A DNA stretch of 37,992 nt, taken from NCBI GenBank assembly GCA_017381715.1, contig JAFOBR010000060.1, forward strand, positions 1-37,992. Reading direction: 5' to 3'. Under the pieces are notes generated by a model. That model searched no databases and was not told the DNA's origin. It was given only the letters and a program-made list of their open reading frames with translations. The stretch is from Clostridia bacterium. GTDB lineage: Bacteria; Bacillota; Clostridia; Oscillospirales; CAG-382. Of the stretch, positions 2,641 to 3,456 are shown piece by piece (within the stretch, counting starts at the first letter, position 1; each line of letters opens with the position of its first letter). The position numbers and the translations under genes were made by a program.

Positions 2641-2667
2641 TTACCCCTAAAAAAATCACCCCTAAAA
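2641..2667 (+). repeat. Left half of a hairpin-repeat unit, interrupted by an insertion
   Basis: A 25-nt stretch (2643-2667) matches 3392-3416 at 24 of 25 positions: ACCCC, a run of seven A, TCACCCC, TAAAA. It ends in the first arm of a hairpin unit and is cut off where the inverted-repeat element begins. The missing right half of the unit (TGCTGCGGATTTTTGGGG) resumes at 3374, directly beyond the other end of the element. Confidence 0.7.
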
Positions 2668-2727
2668 GGCTGGTTCTCATAAGGAAGTTATATTTTCCTT
2701 GTAGGGACAGGCGTCCCCGACTGTCCG
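2667..2727 (+). repeat. Left terminal inverted repeat of the 704-bp element
   Basis: It begins AGGCT, shares TTCTCATAAGGA (2674-2685) exactly with the right end, and ends in a 29-nt core (2699-2727) that differs from the right copy at one position. The core can itself fold, GGACAG pairing with CTGTCC around a 10-nt loop. Confidence 0.75.
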
Positions 2728-2764
2728 AAAAGACAAAAATTTGATACGCAGAAAACAAATAATT

Positions 2765-2796
2765 AACGCCGACAGATTTCGAAATCTGTCGGCGTT
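2765..2796 (-). terminator. Perfect 32-nt palindrome, probable terminator of the small membrane-protein gene
   Basis: Sixteen bases on each side are fully complementary, so it folds into a long stem with almost no loop. Read on the minus strand it lies just past the 2827-3102 gene and is followed by the T-rich sequence AATTATTTGTTTTC. On the plus strand the following bases are less T-rich, but it could also stop transcripts from the lipoprotein gene. Confidence 0.65.
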
Positions 2797-2826
2797 CGTT
2801 ATTCTATAAATTGGAATTTGACGTGG

Positions 2827-3102
2827 TCATTTCTGCTTTCGTTTAAGTGAATGAGCCACTAAATAGGCAATGACTGTTAGAATTATACCAATCACGATAT
2901 GCCCGGGCATCACCAATATAAAGAACATTGCTCTATGCTCACCATAACTAATTATGGTTGGCATTTCAATGGCACTGTAAGCAACAGCAAATGCTGTCGA
3001 AACCAACGGAGAAATCCAAAGTAGTTTTCTCTTAATGAAGAAAACTACAGCCACCGTAAGAACGGGTATTACACCCCAGAAAATGATACTCCACCAATCC
3101 AT
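2827..3102 (-). CDS. Small membrane protein carried by the inverted-repeat element
   Basis: This 91-residue protein is not recognised. About three hydrophobic segments are visible: residues 4-21 (WSIIFWGVIPVLTVAVVF), about 25-45, and about 57-82 including MPGHIVIGIILTVIAYLVAHSL, with a basic C-terminus KRKQK. I chose the ATG at 3102 because AAGGAG lies about 8 nt upstream; an upstream TTG at 3123 would add seven residues but has no better site. A promoter-like sequence (3254-3282) and a downstream palindrome suggest the gene is transcribed alone. It lies inside the 704-bp element, and its wording and base use look more AT-rich than the neighbouring operons, consistent with acquired cargo. No function can be assigned. 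Confidence 0.6.
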   Translation of the reverse strand: MDWWSIIFWGVIPVLTVAVVFFIKRKLLWISPLVSTAFAVAYSAIEMPTIISYGEHRAMFFILVMPGHIVIGIILTVIAYLVAHSLKRKQK

Positions 3103-3220
3103 ACATTCACACTCCTTTGTCAAATTCTTATTTATCGTTCTGTTTTATCGCAAGTTTCGCCTTTGTATTACAAATGCTTCGGGCAAAGCCCATACCCCTA
3201 AGATTGCACGAACCCAGAGG

Positions 3221-3293
3221 CTCCCTCCGGGAGGGAGGCTTTTCGCTCACCTCATTATAACGCAAATCGGCAGAGAAAACAAGTTCTCTGCCG
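3221..3293. other. Two hairpins in the 5' region of the element's gene
   Basis: CTCCCTC-CGG-GAGGGAG at 3221-3237 forms a 7-bp GC-rich stem, and CGGCAGAGAA with its complement at 3268-3293 forms a perfect 10-bp stem with a 6-nt loop. The second overlaps the -35 box of the candidate promoter of the small gene. The remainder of 3103-3307 holds no gene I can support. Confidence 0.5.
3254..3282 (-). promoter_or_regulatory. Candidate promoter for the element's small gene
   Basis: On the minus strand TTGTTT (3277-3282) and TATAAT (3254-3259) are separated by 17 nt. The transcript would carry a leader of roughly 145 nt, including the GC-rich hairpin at 3221-3237. Confidence 0.45.
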
Positions 3294-3307
3294 AAATTCT
3301 TTTGTTG

Positions 3308-3370
3308 CGGACAGTCGAGGACGCCTGTCCCTACAAATGTTGTGTTAAACATCCTTATGAGAAGGAGCCT
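3308..3370 (-). repeat. Right terminal inverted repeat of the 704-bp element
   Basis: Inverted copy of 2667-2727: the 29-nt core at 3308-3336 has one mismatch, TCCTTATGAGAA at 3352-3363 is exact, and AGCCT at 3366-3370 mirrors AGGCT at the left end. The middle section is diverged and 2-3 nt longer. Confidence 0.75.
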
Positions 3371-3456
3371 AAATGCTGCGGATTTTTGGGGACCCCCAAA
3401 AAAATCACCCCTAAAATCCTGCGGATTTTTGGGGACCCCGAAAAAATCACCCCAAG
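3371..3456 (+). repeat. Tandem hairpin-repeat units, same family as at 29055-29157
   Basis: Repeated word: GGATTTTTGGGGACCCC, then C or G, then A6-7, then TCACCCC, with a period of 43 nt. The complete hairpin is at 3408-3434: CCCC, T, AAAATCC, loop TGC, GGATTTT, T, GGGG. The first unit is the right half of the one split by the 704-bp element. Nothing here looks coding. Confidence 0.75.

Follow-up and report, generated by a model that had tools for sequence, protein, structure and literature searches.

A probable RAYT-encoding transposon family of uncultured Clostridia, located in terminator loops and carrying an exchangeable gene

RAYTs are regarded as domesticated transposases with immobile genes, and the spread of REP-type hairpins remains open. 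REPtrons are described as single copy and as not transposing as a unit, without evidence for mobility of tnpAREP (PMC6006769, PMC8266576), and GTAG-tagged hairpins inside the RAYT gene have been reported for subclass 2.4 (PMC6006769). Elements of the IS200/IS605 group are known to insert strand-specifically on folded or single-stranded DNA. Here, we describe a family of elements which likely represents an undescribed gene-swapping system; no cargo-bearing RAYT element was found in the open PMC literature searched.

Like REPtrons, the family has an HUH Y1 protein of the REP-associated type and GTAG-tagged hairpins beside and within its gene. Unlike in REPtrons, the RAYT belongs to elements that are dispersed, carry terminal repeats and a cargo gene, and have a defined target. 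The REPtron criterion (single-copy RAYT, no unit transposition) is not fulfilled, as the RAYTs are found at different terminators within elements that have terminal repeats. HUH Y1 enzymes, hairpins near the ends and the lack of a fixed duplication are shared with IS200/IS605, whereas the terminal inverted repeats, the cargo slot, the terminator-loop target and the RAYT-type enzyme are not. The respective test (a transposase between subterminal hairpins, without inverted repeats at the termini) failed due to the inverted terminal repeats. The copy studied here meets the test for mobile insertion cassettes (MICs; transposon ends, passenger gene, no transposase) and resembles, e.g., MIC231 in its transposon-like ends around a passenger gene. 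RAYT-bearing elements share these ends; no RAYT gene was found in the genome carrying this copy, and an action of such a RAYT in trans is hypothetical. In contrast to MICs, autonomous relatives carry a RAYT instead of a DDE transposase, and a conserved promoter, core and terminator frame the exchangeable gene. REPINs/BIMEs and MITEs are similar in having two inverted REP-like hairpins and short cargo-less relatives (here L074, L082, L085 and others), but lack the gene and the conserved core of the present element.

The element in the window and its host flanks

The window, i.e., the whole stretch of DNA analyzed, comprises 37,992 nucleotides of a Clostridia bacterium, whose genome is a 1.8-Mb assembly in 102 contigs. 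An earlier note, made from the sequence alone, had proposed an inverted-repeat element at 2667-3370 inside a hairpin unit. This claim held, as both pairs of inverted arms are present (2667-2689/3348-3370, 87% identity; 2699-2741/3294-3336, 84% identity), and in a search of the element's own genome its ends were matched jointly (79% over 64-66 nt, E 5.8e-8). The cargo strand is the minus strand, with the "head" at 3370 and the "tail" at 2667. The following features were assigned:

2667-3370, minus strand: whole inverted-repeat element (inverted repeats, and paired ends in relatives)
3348-3370, minus strand: head end repeat AGGCTCCTTCTCATAAGGATGTT, with the conserved end TTCTCATAAGG
2667-2689, plus strand: tail end repeat, which repeats the head in inverted form
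3308-3336, minus strand: REP-like GTAG and hairpin (TTGTAGGGACAGGCGTCCTCGACTGTCCG) on the head side, also in frame within RAYT genes of relatives
2699-2727, plus strand: REP-like GTAG hairpin on the tail side, in opposite orientation
3254-3282, minus strand: promoter-like TTGTTT-17 nt-TATAAT, preceding the RAYT gene in RAYT-bearing relatives
3268-3293, no strand assigned: perfect palindrome CGGCAGAGAA...TTCTCTGCCG over the -35 box (z -6.4)
3143-3199, minus strand: conserved core with hairpins GGGC-TTT-GCCC and GCMTTTGT-AAT-ACAAAKGC, then GAAACTKGCGATAAA (sequence models and counts)
3119-3142, minus strand: cassette half-site on the 5' side of the gene, CAGAACGATAAATAAGAATTTGAC
2827-3123, minus strand: gene carried as cargo, encoding a small membrane protein (91 aa when started at ATG 3102; 98 aa from TTG)
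2799-2822, minus strand: cassette half-site on the 3' side of the gene, GTCAAATTCCAATTTATAGAATAA
2741-2798, minus strand: conserved terminator hairpin CGCCGACAGATTTCGAAATCTGTCGGCG plus GTTAATTATTTGTTTTCTGC (model R1)
2641-2666, no strand assigned: host flank with half of a terminator-like hairpin that is split by the element (on the cargo strand, the 3' arm)
3371-3402, no strand assigned: host flank with the remaining half of this hairpin (on the cargo strand, the 5' arm)
3403-3456, no strand assigned: intact copy of the split hairpin unit, which is dispersed in the genome
3511-4374, minus strand: host gene upstream in cargo orientation, phosphatidylserine decarboxylase

The claim of a 91-residue membrane-protein gene with its own promoter-like and terminator sequences was likewise confirmed. 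The ORF (2827-3102, minus strand; the TTG-started form reaches 3123) was judged by its sequence to encode a small membrane protein and had no match in Pfam or NCBIfam. Both the promoter-like TTGTTT-17-TATAAT and the terminator-like hairpin are kept in relatives whose cargo is unrelated. The match of the left flank to the intact unit (24 of 25 positions) was reproduced at 96% over 25 nt. The empty site, said to be readable from the flanks, could be reconstructed as the loop of a CCCCAAAAATCC...GGATTTTAGGGG hairpin; on the cargo strand, the split hairpin reads CCCCAAAAATCC...TTTTAGGGGTGATTTTTTT. TAAA does occur at both junctions in the window, but a fixed target-site duplication is not supported, as the flanking T/A run differs in length across the element family.

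The CCCC...GGGG hairpin unit (3383-3456), the target of the insertion in the window, is dispersed at approximately 25 other places of the genome and has the appearance of a terminator-type repeat. Between promoter and core, where the RAYT is found in relatives, the window reads GCCTCCCTCCCGGAGGGAGCC (3200-3253), and several RAYT-less relatives have longer nested hairpin repeats in this interval.

The element family and its RAYT gene

A search of 60 relatives with the window element yielded matches whose left and right blocks pair up around differing interiors; an alignment of 15 of these matches showed constant parts and one variable gene. Based on models of the terminator (R1) and of the 57-nt core (R2), the core is present in 32 of the 295 genomes of the order and in 6/391 genomes of the class. 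The architecture recurs: on the cargo strand, an end repeat, the promoter, the double-hairpin core, one cargo gene, the terminator and an end repeat follow each other, with the terminator motif on the same strand after the core in most loci with sufficient downstream sequence. Many loci originate from fragmented metagenome assemblies, and numerous ends fall at contig breaks. Among named public relatives, the core pattern was found in MAGs of uncultured Clostridia/Oscillospiraceae, the majority of which are labeled herbivore gut. Neither the core nor the terminator nor the junction site introduced below matched Rfam, and phage, plasmid and viral collections gave no informative match to the core. 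A covariation test on the core relies on a single varying pair (C-G to A-U).

The cargo is diverse. From the 147 core loci examined (132 distinct), 72 distinct cargos were obtained. They fall into 55 sequence families, and 42 of these are singletons. Pfam matches include GNAT, NUDIX, HAD, EamA, peptidase S51, SF0329, HTH_3, DUF3795, a nucleotidyltransferase and a kinase of the phosphomethylpyrimidine type, among others, and many cargos are orphans. A role of the cargo in defence is not claimed, since only three PADLOC families were found among 38 cargos.

In longer relatives, an intact gene lies between promoter and core (L049, L061, L065, L077, L084, L088, L098, L103, L164, L174 and others). 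Its product matches NCBIfam NF047646 REP_Tyr_transpos (E 1e-14 to 1e-18), albeit under the 80-bit equivalog cut-off, as well as TnpArep in the PDB (4er8, 2e-6), and HxH and DYE are conserved. The membership test (match to the RAYT/TnpAREP protein family, HUH motif and catalytic Tyr region) is thus met by these relatives, and we conclude that the gene encodes a RAYT, i.e., a REP-associated HUH transposase. In RAYT-bearing relatives, the RAYT stop codon marks the start of the core and, judged from coordinates only, 12 RAYT genes terminate 1-3 nt ahead of a core. Because core-adjacent RAYTs went into the search profile, the ranking of hits is biased, but the adjacency is not. The GTAG hairpin found close to the two element ends is also present, in frame, within RAYT genes. 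A recognizable RAYT is retained at only about 13% of the core loci.

The earlier note had taken the element for a non-autonomous mobile cassette without transposase, and this is supported by the recurrence of the paired ends around other cargos in many genomes. It had proposed to search relatives for the 61-nt ends, which were found as pairs around different cargos, and for a matching transposase, for which the RAYT gene inside longer versions with the same ends qualifies. It had also proposed to look for an empty site at the same locus, but no clean empty allele was seen among the compared genomes: G004 and G002 lack the element, but G004 also lacks the hairpin array, and apart from G004 only G001 was comparable, in which the site is occupied. 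Neither of the outcomes named as refuting, namely the small gene at this site without the repeats or ends never paired elsewhere, occurred. The terminator-loop target, the exchangeable cargo slot and the cassette pool of the cargo with its palindromic junction sites were beyond the view of that note.

Short cargo-less relatives were also observed (L074, L079, L081, L082, L085, L086, L089, L091, L094, L096 and L100, own genome C29:5700). They consist of the head ATGGGTGATGTCCTTATCGGAGAAATAAGAT, the core and a short terminator, followed by long hairpin arrays with variable stems, in which a constant 9-mer separates the hairpins (AGTGATATT, or AGTGAAGTT in the genome of the window and ATGAAATC for L096). 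No right ends of these short elements were found. As cargo-less elements retain the core, a purely mRNA-based function of the core in cargo expression is disfavored. A Gut-1 RNA (RF01706; L041:204-280) adjoins one element.

Location in the loops of intrinsic terminators

For 32 elements with both ends available, the two host flanks together form a terminator stem, with a mean of -19.5 kcal/mol compared to -9.4 for crossed pairs. None of 20,000 permutations was as good, and 26 of the 32 elements lie beyond the 5% tail. Five of the 32 are RAYT-intact elements (L061, L065, L077, L084 and L164), each located in a different terminator. Of 46 upstream genes, 40 have the same orientation as the element (40:6), and the upstream gene often ends just 13-50 nt before it. 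Location in terminator loops with an orientation bias is shown and, like the family itself, the hairpin loop as insertion target is well supported.

These data bear on a first alternative, in which the elements are classical mobile insertion cassettes, moved by a DDE transposase acting in trans on the inverted ends, with the RAYT as an unrelated passenger. Terminal inverted repeats of approximately 23-60 nt and the lack of a transposase in the window copy would fit. However, no DDE gene was present in any element examined, in 12 independent loci the RAYT is found at one fixed place, its stop codon abutting the core, and there is no constant target-site duplication. Further, targeting of terminator loops in one orientation suggests folded single strands. 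We therefore regard this explanation as unlikely.

Cargo replacement and the cassette pool

Replacement of the cargo was directly apparent at the locus of the window, where the sister genome G001 has an element with a 284-aa cargo instead of the window's gene, while head (approx. 110 nt) and tail (approx. 120 nt) are identical. In L049, L164 and L065 the RAYTs are 94-98% identical but the cargos are unrelated; across RAYT and core, DNA identity in 30-nt bins is close to 30/30, and it drops to background level right after the core. L077 and L174 show the same pattern, losing identity after the core. The breakpoint of cargo replacement is, thus, at the core. Conversely, near-identical cargos occur in different terminators and in elements with and without RAYT (L061/L144, L066/L077, L060/L070/L178), and RAYTs of 94-98% identity occur in different families.

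A second alternative, which we hold less likely than not, assumes that the elements are not currently mobile but represent old dispersed sites, whose genes are swapped by homologous recombination between conserved flanks. Conserved head, core and tail supply the homology, and both the same-site replacement (G000/G001) and the breakpoints at the edge of the conserved core agree with it. On the other hand, elements are found in many different terminators, including the same cargo at different sites, and therefore insertion must also occur. For the swap step alone, homologous recombination at core and terminator remains possible and is a serious alternative.

A homolog of the window's cargo gene, absent from the searched congeners, was found in G069, a genome of another family (86% identity). 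It is part of an array of co-oriented genes (VOC, the homolog, GNAT, alpha/beta hydrolase, lipoprotein and another small gene), with a 45-bp palindromic site between the genes; this array is without a core. The homology runs from the end of the core to the end of the gene, and the two halves of the 45-bp junction site flank the cargo in the window. Among 45 scorable elements, 12 have both half-sites and 22 have neither (rates in shuffled sequences 2% and 0.2%; Fisher p 0.0015). The junction site was detected in 16/295 genomes of the order, mostly between small co-oriented genes, and some gene families are common to arrays and elements. The model of the site (R3) has its pairs one column off and acts as a near-sequence model; its sites were checked by eye.

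These arrays raise a third alternative, a true integron system in which an integron integrase moves the cassettes and the core acts as attI. In its favor, each gene of the multi-gene arrays is followed by a palindromic site with a G-TTAG-like center, and the gene content is integron-like; as in integron cassettes and CALINs, small genes without promoters form a pool that has palindromic junction sites, and the gene types are similar (GNAT, NUDIX, VOC, GrpB and HAD). However, the attC test (R''-L''-loop-L'-R') was not met: R'' and R' boxes should be separated by L boxes and a loop, while the center of the 45-bp palindrome is GTCGAAC-A-GTTAGAT, with approximately 1 nt between the GAAC and GTTAG boxes. 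No integrase was recognized in the listed gene neighborhoods (ORF lists only, without a genome-wide HMM search), and the lack of an Rfam match for the site also counts against it. In addition, RAYT elements differ in carrying one gene each, with their own promoter and terminator. An integron is, thus, an improbable explanation.

We favor the reading, which we consider likely, that the window element arose by deletion from a RAYT-encoding transposon, although catalysis by the RAYT and the mechanism of swap or capture are inferred. The full-length form would consist of end repeat, promoter, RAYT, core, cargo, terminator and end repeat, would insert, in one orientation and shortly after the end of a gene, into the loop of an intrinsic terminator hairpin, and would carry one exchangeable gene. 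The window copy would have lost the RAYT but retained promoter, core, cargo, terminator and ends, and therefore be mobile only if a RAYT is supplied in trans. The RAYT is predicted to catalyze the movement and to act on single-stranded DNA, with folded hairpins serving both as the target and as the ends. Genes in the slot between core and terminator would be drawn from a cassette pool, also present as the multi-gene arrays, and be swapped by recombination at the core and the junction hairpins. Several points speak against this reading: no movement was observed, the clean empty allele is missing, many loci are from fragmented assemblies, about half of the scored elements (22/45) have neither half-site, known RAYTs are described as non-mobile and few core loci keep one. 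Moreover, known HUH Y1 elements do not have long terminal inverted repeats.

A bolder reading, which we put forward tentatively and with less than even confidence, is a RAYT-based gene-capture platform, functionally integron-like but run by an HUH single-strand transposase. Such a platform would land in terminator loops, capture one cassette at the hairpin core beside the RAYT stop codon and express it from its own promoter, and the pool of cassettes with palindromic sites would be shared in herbivore-gut Clostridia. A RAYT clade inside mobile elements with a defined target makes substrate and target testable. An exchangeable slot together with cassette arrays would be a route of gene exchange in uncultured gut Clostridia, in which integrons are not well documented, and would explain the shuffling of small orphan genes between families.

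Cassette-like arrays with the site CAAATTCCAATAGGTCGAACAGTTAGATAAATAAGAATTTG between small co-oriented genes were seen at L232:17300-19950, L233:1-640 (G069:C22) and L256-L273, with neither a core nor a recombinase noticed nearby. One array gene (L267:4428-4922) matches the aminoglycoside-2''-adenylyltransferase family; this is a family match only, from which the function is inferred.
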